64,000 nt of DNA from Sphaerolaimus hirsutus. Taxonomy: Eukaryota; Nematoda; Chromadorea; Monhysterida; Sphaerolaimidae. Below, one piece after another: positions 3,984-35,800 of the stretch. The stretch is taken from NCBI GenBank assembly GCA_964036195.1, contig OZ038451.1, forward strand, positions 20,968,318 through 21,032,317, given 5' to 3'. The stretch's first letter is position 1. Every line of letters begins with the position of its first letter. The notes under the pieces are model-generated. The model was not told the DNA's origin. It saw only the letters and a program-made list of their open reading frames with translations, and did not search any database. The position numbers and the translations under genes were made by a program.

Positions 3984-6900
3984 CTAAACACCCAAAACGT
4001 ACTTTTTGAAGCCCTTCATAGTTTTGGCCAACATTCTGGGCGGGCAGGTGACAGCCATGCCGGACATTTTCTGATCAAACAGCGAGGGTAGATATTTTCT
4101 TGCCACCGGCAGTAATTGGTCACTTTGCACGGCCATTATGCGATCACATTGTCGTTTGACTAATCCCTGAGTATTGATTGAGGGGTGTTTTATGTAGTGA
4201 TGTAAAAAGCGCCAAGACTTTGACACCAAGCGCCAAAAGCGCCAAAAGCGCCATGGCGCTTTTCCGACTCCCAGCGGCAAGCGCCAATGGCACCAAAGCA
4301 AAATGGCGCTTTTTGCTTTGGCGCTAGCGCCAGGTATTTTTTCCTGGCGCCGAAAAAAATAGCGCCTTGGCGCTTTTCATGCGCATGGCGCCAAGCGCCA
4401 ATGGTTCCACAGCAAGATATCGCCAAGCGCCATGGCGCTTTTTGCTCTGGCGCTACCGCCAGTCGCCAGCGCCATAGCGCTTTTACATCACTAGTAAAAA
4501 CCTGCAGTGGAAGTGAATATATTTACATGAAGTTCACTGACTACACTTTGCAATGAAGTCTACCATATACCATTGGAATAAAAAATCACAGAAATGCTTC
4601 TAATCACATTAGATCGATCGCAGTATCGGTGACCTTGTTTAAAAAATTTTTTCACGTGACAATATGGATATATTCTTTATAAAGCACGCAGACCAATTCC
4701 TTTTGCTGCAACGCACACAGCAGCGCCACGCGCATTCGGGCGCCAATGAAAAATAGCCCCAAAGGACCAAAGGTGCCTGTGTTTTGGCGCCAGCACCATG
4801 GCGCTGTTATATAAGGGGTGAGAAAGTTTGATGAAAGTTTTTCGACAGTGACAGGTAATTATGTTATAAACTTCTTGTCACTTAACAATACATTTTTTTG
4901 AAAATAAACTTTTAAAAGCTTGTCTAATCGAAACCGGAAATCTTCATTACACAGGCACAATGTACTACAGGTACACCCAATCCCACCCAAAATTCACCTT
5001 GTCCAGTCTCCTGACAAAAGCCATGAGCGACTCGTCGCTGGCGCAGTGCACGCTCGCCTCCCGCTCGATCAACTCGAAGACCAAACTGCGCCGCGCCGAG
5101 CTCACGTCCGCCGAGCTCGGCACACTGCCGCCCGACACGAAGCTCGTCTGGCAAATTGGGGGGATAATGATTGAGTGCATGCCTGTATGTAAATGTATAC
5201 AGCATGCAAAGATGCGAATTCAGTTTTCATGCGAATATACCAGGCGGCAGTCCCGGCCTCTAAAGTCATGTGTCAAATGTCATGTAAAATATCAATGAAA
5301 AAGACAAGATTTTATACTGGACTTTGCATGACATTTGACACTTTACAGGATCTGGGAATGGCACCATGTGACAGTCCCGCACACTGTTATTTTAAATCTG
5401 TACGACTTTCTATATAAATATAAAACACCACAGCACATTCTCACACACAAATATAAAACCTAACACAAAACAAATTCGAACAAATTACCCCCTCAAAAAA
5501 ACGCACCACGACTTTCCTAGTGCCCTCATAAGCAGCCACCGGCTGAGCACATCTATACAATTCCAACATAATCACACCCACATCGCTTTGCATCGCCAAA
5601 TTGGCACCATACGCCAGGCCATTGCCGCGTATTTTCTGCCACAGTGGCCCCTCGGTTTGAGTGAGAATTTGCGTGAACAGACGCAGGGGTGCCCAGTCGG
5701 GGTGCTCCTGGCCGTGGGGGGTGGCGCACCACTGGATTTTGTGGGGGTGGGGGCAATTTGAGTAGGTTGGAGTAGCAAGGTGTTTCAAATTTAAAATGAA
5801 CTGGAATAGACATATGTCATGCCATACACTAAAGGCCTAAAGGAACATCAAAATGTTTTCCACACAACAGATAACACTCACTATGGGTTCAATATGGCAC
5901 AGAATTTATCAGATGACTTTATGAAAATGTGGTAACTCTGATATGTATGAATAAAATCCTATACACCACAAAACTTACAAGAGCATAAAACATTGCGTGT
6001 AAAAGTACATAAATATTTGGCGCACCATACAAAATTGTATTCAAATAAAAAAATACATTCACACCTAAAAATTTCAATGCTTCAATTCACAAGAACCAGA
6101 GAATACCCACCAATCAAATTACTCACCACAAAAACATGACTAGATTCCTTCCCGCCAACAGCCATTATAGCGCCGCAATCCAGGGATCTCAAAGGATCAA
6201 TCAAAGTTGGCTCTTTTCCAAGCGGCGACAAAAGTTCACTTCTGACAATATCGGCACTTCCACGCGGAAAATACTTTTTCCAGGGATCCAACAAAGTGGA
6301 TTCATTACCTTTGGCATCACCATTCTCGTTGGCGCTGTGCCAAGAGGTTTGCTGTAGCATGTCCAAGTTGCACATGATGTGCACCGCCATGTTTGTGTCC
6401 GCCGTCAGAACGGTGTAGAGGTTTTGTAGACGATTTACAACAACCTGGGTGGGATTTTCTTAATTAACAATACAGTGTATGGGCTACAAATCGGAAAAAC
6501 CTACCATGGGTTATTCGAGAGGGGCTTAATCGAGGGGAGGGTTTTTTCGCCAGAAATTTTATGAAATTCCACATACCTACTCAATTGTTAGAAAAATCCA
6601 AGAACGACCTAGATGTAGAAGTGTTTCTATAGAAATATTCAAGTGTACCTATATATTTTGGTATAGACCATGTCCTAACGTGTGTTCTGCATTACACAGA
6701 TCACAAACTGCGATACTTGTATGTACATTCTCGCTAAACTCATTGTGGGTGGGGTATTTAGCGGGAATTATTATTTCCCCAGCTCATTCAGTACTTCGGG
6801 AGGGGGGGGGGGTAAATTCAAGGTTGGGTAAATTTAAGTGGGGGATAATTTGAGGAAATACGGTATCTGCCATGGGTCCCATTCCGCAGAAACAAGTGAC

Positions 6901-9900
6901 AAAAGAAGTGGTAAGAAAAGTTATAAGTGGTAAGTCAAGTGACGTAGTACGTATAAGTGACAAGTAGATTTATTACAAAGAAAAAACAGTGATAAAACGC
7001 AACAAAAAAAAAATGTAGTTGTCACCGTCCACTTGCGGAAATGTCACCAAGATGTATTTAGGTTTACTCACGGCATCTTTATTGTCGCCCTGTAAATCGC
7101 TCAGCATTTTCATCAGATTTTGTTCATTTTTCACCGGCTGCGCCATTGGAGGCAGGCTGCCTACAAATGCAAAGGGAAAACAAAATCGTTCACTTTCAAA
7201 TCAAACCATTCACAAAAAATACACTGTAGGAACCAATGGTCAAAATGGGACCAGGCCTTATTTATAATGCAGTTTTATTTTGGCGCCCTGGTGGGGTGCC
7301 ACTCCCAGACACTGTAAAATGCCAAATGTCATGCAAAGTATCGAAAGTCATGTAAAATTTCATGACTAATATCAAACGTCCAATAAAAACTTTTTTTATT
7401 ACATTTTACAGTAACTAGGGCCCCTGGGCGCCTGACGTAAAGGCCAACGCAGTAAAAAATGATAGCCGAGAAATATATGACATGAATTTGACATGACAGT
7501 GTCACATTGACAGATATGTACCCAACTTCACATGTGACGAACTGTTGCTTGAGAAAAATGATTGTCAAATTGTGCTGTGCAAAGTTATACCTATGTCAAA
7601 CTTGTCTGAGCCATGATTTTTTCAAATTAAGGTCCCATTTTTCAGGCTCAAAACAATCCTAGTGAAGACAAATTCCCGGCAGCCCAACAAAACAAACCTT
7701 CCTCATAAAGAAAACAGCCGGACAAAACTTCGGTCATCAAATGCGAGTCCCTTTTCTGGCTGGATATTTTTCCGAGTATTCGCTGCACAGCCACGGCGAC
7801 CCTATCGGCGTCGATCACCATTTGACGTAATAAACGGTGCAACCATAAAACCGCCTGGCTGTAGCGCTCGTAGCTGGTCTGCGTGGCGGGTAAAATGGCA
7901 AAAAAAAATTCGAAAATGAATGTATTTGAATTGAAAAAAATTCGAAAATTTGAAACTACCTTTGGAAAAAATCTAAATTCAAAGACATTTTAGAAAAAAA
8001 CACATCAAAACTTTAAACCCTTTTGTCCAGAGGGTTTACCAGTAGGCGAGGTCTAGTATGGGGGGTTAAAATATGGTTACACTCAAAACGCTCCTCCTCC
8101 ATCCTGAAAATTTTGTTTGGCTACACTAACCCGCTGCAAGGGAGTAAATAATTACCGTAATACCTTGAATACCCCTGTACCTCTGTCCGAATACCCCCCC
8201 CTTTAGAAACTCCATAGTATGACATTGTAAGGATTGTGGGTAGGCCACAATGAAAAGCAGCACAGATTTTGCAAAACAGTATAAAATATTTACAAAAACC
8301 TGAGCCAATTTACAAAAATCAAACGCATGATCAAGATATTTTACCCAGCAATAATCTGTTGATAAAGAAAATTCTGTTATAAAATGCCCCACCCCACAAA
8401 TTATGGCGACTAAACACCTTTAAGTATATTTATGTACCCAGCGAAAAATCCATCCACCGTAAATCCTAAAAATAGTTTCTCAGGGGTTCATCAGACCTAC
8501 GGTAATTGCGAGGGAACTATATTCAATGGGGAACTATCAAAAAAGCGGAAAACTGATCGAGGGTATACGATAGGCAAGCCCGCATAAAACAAACCATCAA
8601 TGAAAGCACAACGAAATGACCGTAATCCCCCAAATTGAGTTCAAACTCCACAGACTGTAAATCACACCGCAGAGCATTGACAACACTCTCATATGGAACA
8701 ATTGTGTCAGTGTCGGTGCGAAGGGGCGATTCAAACAGCATGCTAGTAAGCACTAAAAGCTCAGCTCGTTGTTGAGGGGTCAGGGGCCTGCGTGTTTTGG
8801 TGGACTATGTATGGTGAAAATGTGTTTGAGGGTCTAGATGTTTGCAGTGGCAAAATGGAATTTGCAAAATGATAAATGTATTCCGACCGTCAAATCTGCA
8901 AAACCCCATGAGAAAAACAACAAAAGGTTATATTCTTCTGGTCACATTACATCGCTATAACTACTAGAGTATTTCATTTTGGTGTAAAATTTGTCCCGTG
9001 TCGTGGCTTTATCCATCACAATTTCCCAAAAAATCTCGGGAGATTTATATTTTTTAAATGTAAGACAATGTAAAAAAATTAAAATTGATTTATCTTTTTT
9101 CTCCATCTTGCATTTTTTTATGAGATCATTCATATTTATGTATATTTACTCTGCGTTTTTCACAGACATTAAATTATATTTCATTCTTGAAGATTGTCTA
9201 AAATTATATTTTCTGAGAATCACCAATGTTTCGGAACGCTAGTCACAATAGCATGATAGCAAACTCAGCACAATCATTCAGACAGAGCAATACAGGCGTC
9301 AGAGTTGCAAGTGTAAATAATTGCGGCATACGAAAACTTTCCGCTATGGAAACCATTTTGCAAAACCATTGTGTGCAAATGAATTTACACTTTGCAGATG
9401 CAAGGGGCAAGCTTCAAATATCAGCATCAGGAAAAAAGTGACCTCACCTGCTATCAAACAGGACATTAATCGCCACGAAATTGGTCTGGCAATCATCCAA
9501 AATCACCGGCCAAGGCAATTCATTCACATCAAAAGCTTCACACACTTCACTTTTATCAGTTGCCGCCAAATTTGAGTAGGTTTTTATGCTATGAAATCGC
9601 AAATCATCCAAACTTTCCACCAGCATTCTGTTGAGAAATTCGGATGTTGGTTGATTCGCCTGGGGTGTGGTGCAAATGATTTATGGCGATCGAATGGCGC
9701 CATGGCGCTGGCGCCATTTGAGCAATGGCTCAATGGTAAGTGCGATTAATTGCGCCAGGTGTTTCTGGGCCGGTTTTGAAGTGCCATTGGCGCTTAACGC
9801 GAGGTGCCATATTATTTGATGGCGATATATGGTGCCCCCGGCACTGTTTTTCTTTGCGCTTTTCCAGCATTACACATGATGTCATTACACTTTCTAATGT

Positions 9901-12900: not shown

Positions 12901-14838
12901 AGTAGCGAGCCTACATCGCAGGGAACATTTACTTATATTACTGGGCACAGAACGGAAAAAGCTTATGGATACAAAAGGTAACAAGGAAAATCAACCAAAC
13001 TCCCCCCCCCAATAAAAACCAACCATCTCATTATTGCAGCTATCCCTCAAATTTTTCAATCTCCCGCCAGTTTCATATCTATATCCACAATTTTCCGGAT
13101 ACAATTCATGTTTTATTTTCCTCTCGAGAACATCTTCCATGTCATTTTCATTTTCCTGCATCTCCGAGTAAACTACCCCCGCGTCTTCACCTGAAGCAGT
13201 GATGTGGTGCACCTGGGCAGTGAGTTTTTTTCTTGATTTTTTTCCTTCAAATTATGGTTACAGTTTTAAACATCTTATATTTAAAACAATCTTCCAAGAA
13301 AATATAAAAAGTTATATCTATTTATATTTTCCCCAGGCTTCTCCAGAGAATTTTTTTTTATATGGGGCCAATGTAAAAATATCACATTTAAATTCATGCC
13401 CTCCGCATTTTTCTAGGGGTTTGCCGGGGATCCAGTACGGTTCACCAAAATGCCTACAAACCAGTTTTGATTACAGTTATACTCGGCGGACACCACATTT
13501 AGTATGGAAACCTGCCATAACCCATCTGAATAATGAAGCAAAAATTAGTCTTTTTCATAATATTTATTGTAGTTTTTGCTGTGTAATAATTAATAACGAA
13601 ATTTATCACAAGATTTTTCTTCGTTAAATTATGGTAGGATTCTGCGGATACTTTGCGGTCCGCCGAGTATACCATTCATTTAGGAGTTTCGGGAATTTTT
13701 CAGAAAGTTTTTTAGTGTGAAAAGCTCTAAAAGACACGTCAGTTTCTGACCACTCCGACTATTTGCAAAATTATAGATATACGAGATCCTAAAAAAGAAT
13801 ACTCAATGTCGATCTCAACATTCGACGACCAAAAATACGCTGAATAAAAATCCCCCCCCGTACCTCAGTCATAAACTGTTCCTGAGTCAACAAAGGGTTC
13901 AAAATGTGATCCAAATAAATGGGCAACATATTCAACATGCCCTTGACGCCGCAAGTGCTCAACGTATAACAAGTGTAGTCTTCAGAAGTGACAGCATTGG
14001 TGCCGCTGGCAAAACACGCATTGGCTACCATATCTAGAACCCCTTTCCTGAGGCATTCCCAAACCCTGTATAATGCTCTGAAAAATGTAAAATGTCATAC
14101 AAATTGTCAAAAGTGATGTGAAATGCCCTGGAAAATAGCAAATGTACGTTTGCCATATTGCAGGCCATTTGACATGACATTTAGGTAGTTTGCGTGACAT
14201 GTGACATTTTGTAGCGCATTTTACAGGGTCTGGGAGTGGCACCAGGGGTAGCTTTGAGACCCCATGAAAACTAGGTGTTCAAGTGTGTGAGGCAATCCGT
14301 CATCTGTTAGGGCTTCCGTGGCTGCGTGGGGGGGGGGGGTTGTTTGAAGGAGTGGGGTGGTTTGGTGTTGCGTTTCAGTATATAAATTCCGTGCCTGTGC
14401 ACCGACTGTTCTTTATGTTGAGAGCAGAGGTGGAAAACTTTACACAATAAATATCAAGATTTGAAACTTTACGACAAACAAGCAACCCCATCGGGACACA
14501 CATTGCTGGCAGTTAATTGGAAACGAAAATAATTAAAATGCCATTTCCTCGCAACAGAGTCAAGTGACACGACTATCAAGTAACCGCTCACATACAAAGT
14601 TCCGTGTCACTTTCCATAATTTGTCACTTGAAACAACTAAAGGTCCACGAGACGCCCACACACCCCAATCCCACCCGTTCGAATAATCCCCCACCCGCAA
14701 ACCTAAGTACACAAAAGCGTGGACCAGGGGCCCGCCCACATCCGCCATAGTACATCGCAAACCGGACTTTGGCGCCAAATATTTGCAAACGTCGATCAAT
14801 CCATTGGCTTTGCATTTTCCCACGAGCTTCCATGACAT
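3984..14838 (-). CDS. M16 family zinc metallopeptidase, C05D11.1/YOL098C-like
   Basis: Predicted cytosolic M16 (pitrilysin/insulysin clan) peptidase of the C05D11.1/yeast YOL098C branch, cleaving peptides inside a two-lobed chamber; the substrate is unknown. Seventeen exons, 5' to 3': 14838-14703, 14321-14243, 14047-13864, 13212-13024, 12088-11810, 11508-11398, 11309-11160, 10788-10612, 10166-9963, 9659-9448, 8787-8595, 7878-7698, 7160-7072, 6444-6127, 5731-5507, 5147-4998, 4166-3984. All borders are GT/AG and phases agree; the sum is 3,060 nt, 1,019 residues, normal for the branch. The inverted zinc motif HTLEH is at 57-61 and a downstream ligand candidate Glu150 lies in VVYSEMQ. Later family blocks include GPLWQKIRGNGLAYG and a C-terminal FKKYV. 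The ATG at 14,838 begins MSWKLVGK and reaches the conserved SGLR..MADVGGPLV block. No signal peptide is seen. Intron 2 is an introner-like element. Confidence 0.93.
4196..4493. repeat. GGCGCCA-rich palindromic element in last M16 intron
   Basis: Ends TAGTGATGTAAAAAGCGCC and GGCGCTTTTACATCACTA are inverted copies. The interior is almost wholly made of degenerate units of TTTGGCGCCA on both strands. It lies in the intron between the last two M16 exons. Similar GGCGCC-rich patches occur near 4,720-4,810, 9,690-9,830, 19,395-19,485, 24,050-24,085, 28,265-28,300 and 59,255-59,330. The ends resemble hAT termini, but I could not find an 8-bp target duplication. Confidence 0.65.
5240..5366 (-). mobile_element. 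Family-1 introner-like element, internal to an M16 intron
   Basis: On the minus strand it begins GTGCCATTCCCAGATCCTGT and ends with the degraded inverse (GCCGGGACTGCC). This is the same terminal repeat that bounds the introns at 14,048-14,242 and 34,087-34,268. Here it sits inside the intron 5,148-5,506 and does not supply its splice sites. The interior shares the ATGTCAAATGTCATGCAAAG motif of the family. Confidence 0.6.
6502..6865. mobile_element. TACCGTATTTCCTC-family element in M16 intron
   Basis: The right end GAGGAAATACGGTA is intact at 6,852-6,865; the left end near 6,502 is degraded (TACCATGGGTTATTCGAG). The G-rich GGTTATTCGAGAGGGGCTTA sub-terminal repeat identifies the family. It lies in the intron between M16 exons 6,127-6,444 and 7,072-7,160. 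Confidence 0.6.
6875..7048. mobile_element. Family-2 (CAAGTGGACAAGTG) element, degraded, in M16 intron
   Basis: Ends GTCCCATTCCGCAGAAACAA and GTCCACTTGCGGAAATG are inverted relatives of the GTGCCAATTCCGCAAGTGG ends of the element at 17,945-18,196 and of FIP1 intron 2. The interior has repeated AAGTGGTAAG units. It begins about 23 bases inside the donor side of this intron and so does not define the splice sites. Confidence 0.5.
7295..7432. mobile_element. Family-1 element, partial, in M16 intron
   Basis: The left end GTGCCACTCCCAGACACTGT is nearly identical to the family-1 terminus; the right end is degraded (TTTTACAGTAACTAGGGCCC). The interior carries ATGTCATGCAAAG-like units. It lies within the intron 7,161-7,697 and away from both splice sites. 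Confidence 0.5.
8153..8504. mobile_element. TACCGTAATACC-family element, diverged, in M16 intron
   Basis: TACCGTAATACCTTGAATAC at 8,153 starts a CCCCCC-rich segment typical of the TACCGTATTTCC family. A plausible inverse (CCTACGGTA) ends at 8,504, and a second end-like sequence, ACCGTAAATCC, occurs near 8,457, so two elements may overlap. The interval lies in the intron between M16 exons 7,698-7,878 and 8,595-8,787. The exact right border is uncertain. Confidence 0.4.
11715..11766. repeat. Inverted repeat in M16 intron
   Basis: GGTATTTTTGGAAAGTGTA at 11,715-11,733 and its exact inverse at 11,748-11,766 flank a 14-base spacer made of TTACAC units. It sits in the intron 11,509-11,809. It may be a remnant of a small inverted-repeat element. 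Confidence 0.6.
12320..12842. mobile_element. hAT-like element with 8-bp duplication, GGAAAACGG interior
   Basis: The ends AGGGTGTCAAA and TTTGACACCCT are inverted copies, and the 523-bp element is flanked by an exact 8-bp direct repeat GTATAGCT (12,312-12,319 and 12,843-12,850). Eight-base duplications are the signature of the hAT superfamily. The interior is mostly degenerate repeats of GGAAAACGGAAA, which give spurious open frames rich in K/R/F. There is no transposase. It sits in the M16 intron between exons 11,810-12,088 and 13,024-13,212. Confidence 0.85.
14048..14242 (-). mobile_element. Introner-like family-1 element forming an entire M16 intron
   Basis: This 195-bp intron splits the TGG codon in SYPWKGVLD, just after the zinc-motif exon. 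On the coding strand it starts GTGCCACTCCCAGACCCTGT, whose first two bases are the splice donor, and ends with the inverse ACAGGGTTTGGGAATGCC followed by TCAG, whose AG is the acceptor. The terminal inverted repeats therefore coincide with the intron to within a few bases. The protein reads correctly across the junction, matching the family. The donor-side terminus is nearly the same as that of the intron at 34,087-34,268 in the unrelated FIP1 gene. Confidence 0.85.
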
Positions 14839-32800: not shown

Positions 32801-35800
32801 AAATTTTCATTCCTGTTTACCCATTTTCACCTTTAAAATCACTAGTTCATATGCATTTTTTAACGTATTTTCAGTTATATTTCCCCTATTTTGAGCGATT
32901 TCCCCCGTTTTTTGCCTTCTAAACCTTTAAAAAACCTATACATTCCACACCCGCGACACCCCAAAAATCAGCGATTCTTTATCAATCCAAACCCCCGCTA
33001 GGGTTACAATCCTGGAGACCCCCGGCAACCCCCCAACTGAGACCCCCGCCCCGAACCCACCCTGCGGCGGGGGGCTGGCCCTATCCACCCCTGGCGGCCC
33101 GCTGGAAGTCGACTGATTGGCAACGGCCCCTGTGTCGCCGAGCTGCTGCTGCGGCGGGTTGCCGGTGCCCTGGGCGGGCGGCTGGCTCGAGGTCAAGGTC
33201 GAGATGGCCACCGGCACGGACACCATGCTCGACGGCACCGAAGCGATCTGGGTGTGGGAGATGGATGGAAGATGTGGGGCGGAAACTTAATTTACCGAAA
33301 CGTATCGCCAAATTGGAAAAATTTACGGTAAATTTACGGTACCGCAAAATTTGAAAATTTATAACCGTACCGCAAAATGAATAATTTTCGATAACGCAAA
33401 ACGGAAGTTCACCGCACCGTAACGTTTACCGACAAAAAATTTCACCAGGATCAAATCATTTACCGATTGTATCTGCTGTTGCTGCTGCGGCTGGGTGCTC
33501 TCTAATTTTATAACCTGCACATTTTGCTGCTGGGGGCTTTCAAACTTGACTGGAAGCACGTTCTGTTGGCTGCCGCCCAAAACTTGGATTGAGCTGGTTT
33601 GCTGTTGTGGCGGCGGCTGTGGTGAATTTGAGTTGACAGAACCAAAGTGAATATGTAAACTAAAGTGGGAAGAGCTGAGTTACCGTTAGTCCTCGAATAA
33701 GTCCCCGGGGGAGGTTTGTTGTGATACTTTTGGACATCAAAAGTCATTAAAAACGACTGGGCATATTCAAAAGGGAGTTGCAGTAAGCGGGCTTACTCGG
33801 GGATTTACGGTACTTATGCGAAACTTAACCAGCTATTTATGCAGAATAATTCTTGCTAAGAACATTTCGTTCTCGGTGAATCTCGGCGTGCAAACAAACC
33901 AAAACCACCTCAAATTCGCTGAACTTTCAACTCTGCAAATTCACTTTTGCATATGCAAAAAGAGTTTTAAAAACCCACCTGCGAGACATCTGTCTGCGAT
34001 GGGTGCCTGCCACTGGCCTGCGAAGTGCCAACGGTCCCCCCATGTCCAATCACTTGATTCTGTTCCTTGCTCCTCTGCTCAGCTGCCTGGGGGCACTCCC
34101 AGAGGCTGTAAAGTGCCCTGGAAAGTGTTAAGGGTCATGTAAAGTGTTAAAAGTCTTGTAAAACGGCCTGGAAAATGCCATTTTTCAGGGCATTTTACCT
34201 TACTTTTTTGGCATTTTGCATGACATTTGACATTTTCCAGGGTACTTTACAGGGTCTGGGAGAGGCACCTGCGCGTATTGCTGGGCCAAATTCACAATTA
34301 ATTTTGGCCCCTGGCCCTGATTTTGGCCCTGCTGAACGTTTTGGTTTTGTTGATTTTGATTTTGTTGTTGCGTAGATTGCTGTTGTTGCATTTGGGAAAA
34401 AGCGTTGCTGCCGCCGATCGTCGGTATGCCGTGCGGCGTTTTGTTCTGCGTTTTTTGGGTGACCTTTTTGGTGTGGGATTGGCAATTGACAATTTTTGGG
34501 TTTAAGGAACATGTAAAAATTGACATAACTAGTAAAATTGGCGAAAAAGTTAATGCTATTTGAAGCTAAGAAGTTGGGAATATTAGAATAAATATAATCA
34601 GAAATGGGCTCACACACATTAGTTGACATCAAAATTCGTGTCAATTAAATTAAACCAAATTTTGGTTAATTATGTCGTTTCAAATCACTTACGTGATAGA
34701 GCACAGTGAATTTTTTATCGTCACACTCAATTTCCATTGTTTCTGTTAAGTGTGATCCTTTGGAAAAAAACTGTTTGAGCCTTTTAGTTGACACGAATTT
34801 GCGATGGCAACTAGTGTGTGTGGGGCCCAATGGTCCGACATTAATAGCGGGTTCACGCCAAAGGGATCGGTCCGAATGGGGGATCTCGTTTGGTAATTTT
34901 ACAGTGACAAGAAAAAAACAGTACAAAATGTCCGGATTTTTGAGTCCCGATCACGAAACCCAAATCCCAATCCCAGCTACTAAAATATCCCAGACGCGGT
35001 CCCGAAAACCCATTTGACAGTCCCATTTGAAACCCAATATCCCCATAAAAACCACAACGAAAGTAGGCTCACTCCATTTTCTCACCTGCGCATTAGCCAA
35101 GTGGGCATTTGGCTGTCCGATGATAATTTGTTGAAAAAACGCTTTGTTCGCTGCGGCCGCGTTGCCGCCGTACTCAGAGCGCAGTTTTCGCTGCCTCTCG
35201 CAGTACATGTTCCATGTGTCTGCGATGTTTGAGGGTTTTGTGATTGATCCAACTGTTTTTGGATTGTTTTAAAAATTGCACAATACCAGAAAAGTACTAA
35301 AAAAGAAAAAAAATTGTAAATTGGCAGGTGTCCTTGTAAAAACGGTTATGCCTGTTTTTTAAATACGTTTTTAGACGTTAAAAACACCAGTCATCCTCTA
35401 CCACAACATAAATAAATAGGTAAAAAATTAACTGCCAATGTTTAGAAATTTCAGAGAGCCACTTTTATAAAGTGGGCGGAGTTAGTGGTAATTTGTTCTG
35501 AAAAACGTCACTTTCATCGTAAAAAATCGCCAGACCCGACCTTCAGTGAATCCATAATTAAAGTAATCTGTAATATCCGCCCCCGGCTTTCTCCAAGGTT
35601 TTTCTTCCAACGAAGCGAGTTCAAAATCGAATATTTGCACGCCATTCACCTCTGCAGTTGCATCTACGTCCATTTTACCTGCGTTTACCTGGTTTTTTAA
35701 TTAAATTAATACATAACGTTGTATTCATTATCGTACTGTCATATATTTTTTACCTTAAGATCGATATTAAACCTATAAAGTACCAATTGAGCAAGTCGAC

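Follow-up and report, generated by a model that had tools for sequence, protein, structure and literature searches.

Introners are introns that resemble one another, with similarity that reaches up to both splice sites, and many of their families have terminal inverted repeats (TIRs) and target-site duplications (TSDs), according to the parts of a 2022 survey used here (Gozashti et al.; PMC9860276). The same parts describe a Chrysochromulina introner whose 5' splice site is carried by the element and whose 3' site is co-opted, report introners from no more than two groups when animals and land plants are taken together, both of them animal, and claim no homology between introner families (PMC9860276). 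A paper on intron gain in nematodes names introners as intron sources in general, in the sections used here (PMC9169325). Among transposons, the NuwaI group of PHIS (Harbinger-like) elements is described, in the portion of the source consulted, as found in animals only, with a 3-bp CWG TSD and TIRs that usually start with GGG and are 12–61 bp long (PMC4482050).

Introners made from DNA transposons are already known, and they are rarely reported in animals. Algal MITE-like introners that use TSD bases as a splice site were reportedly described by Huff et al. in 2016. The literature that we searched yielded no nematode introners with terminal inverted repeats, and the family described below may still be published.

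Here we examine an intron of a FIP1 gene in a window of 64,000 nucleotides (the whole stretch of DNA analyzed), which lies on contig C2 of a genome of 348 Mb and 762 contigs. As in the introners of the survey, the element would bring one splice site and the TSD would provide the second; here, however, the duplicated triplet is CWG and a single long palindrome makes up the element. The CWG TSD is shared with NuwaI as described, and the non-donor end of the element, GGGGCAC, also starts with GGG, whereas its donor end starts with GTG and its inverted repeat spans nearly the whole element. The algal introner MITEs reportedly differ in hosts and target site.

Results

One element forms a predicted intron in two unrelated genes

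The original prediction placed the same element as an intron in the FIP1 gene and in an M16 peptidase gene, and the sequence bears out the exact coordinates of both introns on the minus strand (Table 1). As it had also noted, the first 20 bases differ at a single position, with T in FIP1 and A in M16 at position 6. The likeness extends well beyond these bases: bases 1–177 of 182 in the FIP1 intron align with bases 1–191 of 195 in the M16 intron at 71.4% identity over 192 columns (E = 5e-26), with a score of 119 compared with at most 27 in 1000 mononucleotide shuffles. On the minus strand, positions 34268 to 34087 (the FIP1 intron) read GTGCCTCTCCCAGACCCTG...GGGAGTGCCCCCAG (GTGCCT...CCCCAG), and positions 14242 to 14048 (the M16 intron) read GTGCCA...CCTCAG. 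The first lies in codon phase 0 and the second in phase 2.

The inverse of the 5' terminus had been noted at the acceptor. It is present there in both introns, although in imperfect form (TGGGAGTGCCCC in FIP1 and TGGGAATGCCT in M16), and CAG follows each. As a qualification of the introner reading, the AG of the acceptor is not the element's own end but the duplicated target CAG. Compared with its own reverse complement, each intron is 76–77% identical and makes one long imperfect hairpin; the predicted fold of the FIP1 intron with 10-base flanks is −87 kcal/mol (z −9.6), and that of the M16 copy has a z of −7.8. Among the 16 modelled introns of the two genes, end-inverted repeats are strongest in these two (23.5 and 20.0, the next best being 12.5).

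Table 1. Positions of the two element introns, their exons and further element copies in the window.
Feature	Position	Strand	Basis
FIP1 intron, one full-length copy of the element (probable introner)	34087..34268	-	sequence; alignment with M16 intron
Parts of FIP1 intron: element; 3' target-site copy CAG	34090-34268; 34087-34089	-	
5' copy of target site, CAG, last bases of upstream FIP1 exon	34269..34271	-	sequence; family TSD CAG/CTG
FIP1 exon preceding intron, ending ...LIVNLAQQYAQ, phase 0	34269..34463	-	open frame across four modelled exons; region not conserved
FIP1 exon following intron, starting AAEQRSKEQNQ...	33979..34086	-	open frame
Fip1 motif, first part, GADITDYFNYGFTE	35518..35628	-	Pfam PF05182, E 1e-16; place computed from frame
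DTWNMYCERQRKLR in later FIP1 exon	exon end 35086	-	translation
M16 (C05D11.1-like) intron, second full-length copy (probable introner)	14048..14242	-	fold; consensus; alignment with FIP1 intron
M16 copy flanks: CTG on 5' side; CAG at 3' end	14243-14245; 14048-14050	-	
M16 exon 2, ending ...DDGLPHTLEHLVFMGSQSYP + TG	14243..14321	-	gene model; motif spacing in homologues
M16 exon 3, starting G + KGVLDMVANACFASGTNA...	13864..14047	-	gene model; motif spacing in homologues
Further copy, sense, inside M16 intron ~5148-5506, away from splice sites	5243..5365	-	nhmmer E 4.6e-13; gene model
Further partial copy, antisense, inside M16 intron ~7160-7698	7295..7422	+	nhmmer E 8.1e-20; gene model

The M16 gene offers a conserved protein at the join. 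Its product is a C05D11.1-like protein with a Pfam peptidase M16 C-terminal domain (E = 5.9e-5). Joining ...CCCTG to GAAAGG gives HTLEHLVFMGSQSYPWKGVLD and restores the conserved motif HTLEHLVFMGSQSYPW-KGVLD, the spacing of which is kept in 111 of 120 homologues among the matches listed, while reading through the element in the joined frame meets a stop within 10 codons. On this sequence evidence, the case that the M16 segment is a real intron is strong. The FIP1 join (QQYAQ-AAEQR) falls within a Q-rich, poorly conserved stretch. Support for this intron comes from its GT-AG ends, an open frame over four modelled exons, a stop on read-through and the fact that the M16 intron is the same element. 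In the gene model, these four exons have no in-frame join to the FIP1 exon that precedes them.

A tree of 37 M16 homologues from nine groups (flatworms, tunicates and tardigrades being absent) places the protein on a long branch adjoining nematodes. The COX1 of the host reads well in the invertebrate mitochondrial code and is ~70% identical to that of insects and a priapulid; among the 120 matches listed are closer sequences, with neighbours at 91% and 82%.

A profile search of the window found four element copies. Genome-wide copies placed at random in introns, away from splice sites, had been named as evidence against an introner, and this pattern is seen in part: two of the four window copies coincide with splice sites and two lie within larger introns, and among the sampled genomic copies (below) support for such coincidence is confined to some. 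A 16-base terminus pattern, with up to three mismatches allowed, has five matches in the window (0.28 expected), four of which are element copies. A search of the window against Rfam had no hits at gathering scores.

Some further features of the two genes and the window may be recorded. The donors of both element introns have C at +5, and nearly all other modelled donors in M16 and FIP1 have G there. Host acceptors in these genes are not of the TTTTCAG type, which is that of C. elegans. A 40-base repeat occurs in two adjacent FIP1 introns, in opposite orientations and with 87.5% likeness between its two copies (34611-34649 and 34783-34822); it is perhaps another small repeat family. Between 43500 and 54500, the window holds units repeated at ~1-kb spacing with near-identical 90-aa open frames.

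The element is a near-palindrome flanked by CWG duplications

The conserved 5' end recurs across the genome: GTGCC[AT]CTCCCAGAC has 2017 exact occurrences and its reversed control has none. We took the first 72 listed places, which are consecutive, form 70 loci and all lie on contig C1, and kept the 64 copies with a recognizable 3' end (in the other 8, no stretch within 500 bases matched the 3' end at 13 or more of its 19 bases). Exact 3-bp duplications flank 35 of the 64 copies (24 CAG, 10 CTG and 1 ATG, hence 34 CAG or CTG), as located by a 3'-end finder that gave a bonus to matching triplets; with this bonus removed, 18 of 30 match. The triplet before GTGCC is CAG in 30 of 64 copies and CTG in 20, and the triplet after the 3' end is CAG in 35 and CTG in 13. 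Based on the CAG and CTG duplications in the sampled copies, the TSD is CWG. Across the genome, 1606 of the 2017 5' ends are preceded by CAG or CTG.

A consensus built from 45 copies of 140–235 bases, the two window introns among them, is a palindrome of ~190 bases with a 4-base loop. Identity of copies to this consensus ranges from 72.6 to 95.5% (median 88.2%), the FIP1 and M16 introns standing at 87.4% and 86.2%. The element ends, GTGCCACTCCCAG and CTGGGAGTGCCCC, differ at two positions, and one of these gives GT at one end only (GTGCCAC at one end, GGGGCAC at the other). All three near-full copies in the window have GT at one end only. Outside the window, a profile applied without the GTGCC search recovered 20 near-full copies, of which 18 have GT at one end, one at both and one at neither, although the profile was built from GTGCC-ended copies and favours similar ends.

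The same profile found 91 clusters beyond the sampled copies in 360 kb, including the four in the window; therefore, the wider family is larger than the count of 2017. Some related copies, at L067 2075-2302, L040 271-468 and L076 4732-4928 among others, end differently (GTGCCAATC, GTGGCAGTC and GTGGCAATC) but keep the design of GT at one end. The translated element matched no protein. An autonomous element was sought in the fetched loci through distant 3' ends and open reading frames (ORFs) of at least 280 aa; one such ORF was found, in L075. Stretches found by pattern scans in viral contigs (0 and 7) and in genome contigs (11) were set aside as chance, the element profile giving only short matches round the seed on those 18 loci (best E 0.019 among the best 15 rows).

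CAG is in excess on the acceptor side

A CAG on one strand is a CTG on the other, and thus equal counts are expected without selection or strand preference. In the genome-wide counts, which come from exact strings with different copies at each end and so compare populations rather than pairs, CAG stands directly after the element 768 times and CTG 427 times, and directly before it CAG stands 890 times and CTG 716 times. The CAG excess is larger at the 3' end than at the 5' end (odds ratio 1.45, p = 2.5e-6), as expected if selection for splicing keeps or creates AG. The 5' end also has a CAG excess (p = 1.6e-5), for which an acceptor gives no direct explanation; possible sources are a more favourable context at the end of the exon, the retention of CAG insertions and a bias of the transposase itself. 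Mixed pairs in the sample lean the same way, with seven copies that have CTG before and CAG after and one with the reverse (two-sided p = 0.07). The M16 copy belongs to the former kind.

Removal of the element in silico restores conserved proteins

Joins were modelled in silico by removing the element together with one target copy and reading the frame across. This yields matches to conserved proteins, over the join or next to it, in calmodulin-like, acetylcholine-receptor, adhesion-GPCR and cadherin genes. Of 20 sense peptides, 5 have a Pfam domain that spans the join or lies at it, the other 15 giving none or weak unrelated ones: a ligand-gated channel ligand-binding domain in L032 (E = 1e-18), 7tm_2 in the adhesion-GPCR-like gene of L054, a cadherin domain beginning at the join in L041, an EF-hand pair in L031 (28.3 bits, just under the cut-off of 30) and PAN_1 in L059 (20 bits, just under the cut-off of 21.4). 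None of 10 antisense spliced peptides reached a Pfam cut-off. Because the first ten sense peptides were picked by eye for a known-protein look, and the rest of both sets were taken from longer open frames, the sense and antisense rates are no fair contrast. Alignments with solved structures run ungapped across the join in L031 (calmodulin) and L032 (acetylcholine receptor alpha-7), and the match of L087 with SETD3 has a gap at the join. Joins with protein support are thus those of M16 and five fetched loci, one of the five (L032) being without AG. In L054, two sense copies on the minus strand (3204 and 4486) appear by eye to sit in separate exons of a single adhesion-GPCR-like gene, and one of the two has Pfam support.

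We also compared the coding frame on the left and right of the 64 sampled copies. With 90 bases per side, the two frames agree in 19 copies at exact removal and in 17 and 20 when the join is shifted by three, compared with 11, 7, 11, 7, 7 and 9 at out-of-frame shifts of +1, +2, +4, +5, −1 and −2. With 60 and 120 bases, 16 and 18 agree at exact removal, compared with 5–11 and 6–10 out of frame. A three-base periodicity is evident. Other controls weaken the test: at 90 bases, 18 of 64 copies have a left flank in agreement with the element itself (8 and 11 copies with flanks of 60 and 120 bases), and agreement is also seen in 554 of 2792 comparisons within contiguous DNA of the loci. The agreeing copies lean towards the sense orientation, 15 to 4 at 90 bases (p = 0.02), 11:5 at 60 bases and 13:5 at 120 bases. 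A joint-score version of the test set sense barely apart from antisense (15 vs 13 copies), and ORF length across the join separated neither CAG copies from the rest (p = 0.13) nor sense from antisense copies (p = 0.47). On each strand, ORFs at joins exceed those at control positions in length (p = 0.025 and 0.027). We nevertheless rejected this as evidence: G+C is 0.50 in the flanks and 0.42 in the controls, and G+C-rich controls have equally long ORFs (median 105).

Most sampled copies show no coding join. Three copies in apparent sense coding exons, in L032, L047 and L087 (element at 1500, 1500 and 2499 on its own strand), have CTG or CCG rather than AG at the 3' end. In L032, the conserved receptor sequence is kept only when a segment with a CCG end is removed. 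In L087 and L047, where the exons were judged by eye to be sense coding, CTG follows the element, and GGGAC takes the place of the GGGAG of other copies; for L087, the codon test points to the antisense strand, contrary to the SETD3 match. These three copies may reflect non-AG splicing, the use of nearby AGs with small protein changes, or unspliced alleles.

Discussion

We propose that the FIP1 intron is an introner, namely a non-autonomous near-palindromic MITE (consensus ~190 bp) whose insertions target CAG or CTG and duplicate those three bases, and we put the probability of this reading at roughly 0.88. Its presence in unrelated genes and in different codon phases, the CAG/CTG TSDs and the restoration of protein on exact removal all speak for the introner named in the original prediction. 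Our confidence comes from the M16 motif, from the duplications together with the GT at a single end, and from the protein joins; the codon test does not carry it.

Other histories could leave similar traces. An ordinary MITE might have settled in pre-existing introns, with the flanking intron sequence later lost and the element left as the intron by chance. The two window copies within larger introns and the many genomic copies without a coding join fit this account; however, exact trimming to both splice sites would have been needed independently in FIP1, in M16 and at the other coding joins, the CWG duplications directly flank the element, and the CAG excess is greater on the acceptor side, all of which make it improbable. 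Introners may also spread through RNA, with spliced introns reverse-splicing into new transcripts and then returning to DNA, as fungal introners without TIRs or TSDs are read in the parts of the survey used here (PMC9860276). For the present family we consider this very unlikely, given its marks of DNA transposition: inverted ends with 3-bp CWG duplications, an antisense copy within an intron, and CTG-CTG copies without AG.

Programmed elimination, in which the segments are cut from somatic DNA and not from RNA, would account for coding sequence being restored even at the CCG end in L032. DNA excision needs neither the sense lean of the frame-agreeing copies, seen at all three flank lengths, nor the enrichment of AG at the 3' end, and the elements are present in the assembly; we judge the chance of this explanation to be slight in the extreme.

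Under the introner reading, the element would insert at CAG or CTG and duplicate the three target bases, and its end starting with GTGCC would provide the 5' splice site. Where a CAG on the sense strand of an exon is hit, the upstream copy of CAG would remain as the exon end and the downstream copy would become the 3' splice site, and removal of the intron would restore the original reading frame exactly. Splicing would take place in vivo, transposition would probably depend on a transposase of PHIS/NuwaI type, a DDE enzyme with a Myb/SANT partner, and the donor may have arisen when GGG became GTG in one of the terminal repeats. Judged by TSD and terminus, the family would be introners derived from a MITE resembling NuwaI, with some of the MITE copies acting as introns and others not.

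These features invite a broader and more tentative idea, to which we give somewhat less than even odds: a CWG-target animal transposon may stand one base change from being an intron maker, with GGG-to-GTG creating the donor and a target CAG supplying both exon end and acceptor. Landings at CTG would then be repaired later or removed via non-AG acceptors, as perhaps in L032.

The origin of introns has long been a question, and there are few reports from animals of introns that mobile DNA has made. In this family the copies number in the thousands, and a simple rule gives the source of both splice sites. Its CAG and CTG targets are, moreover, an internal control that helps to part transposon preference from selection for splicing.
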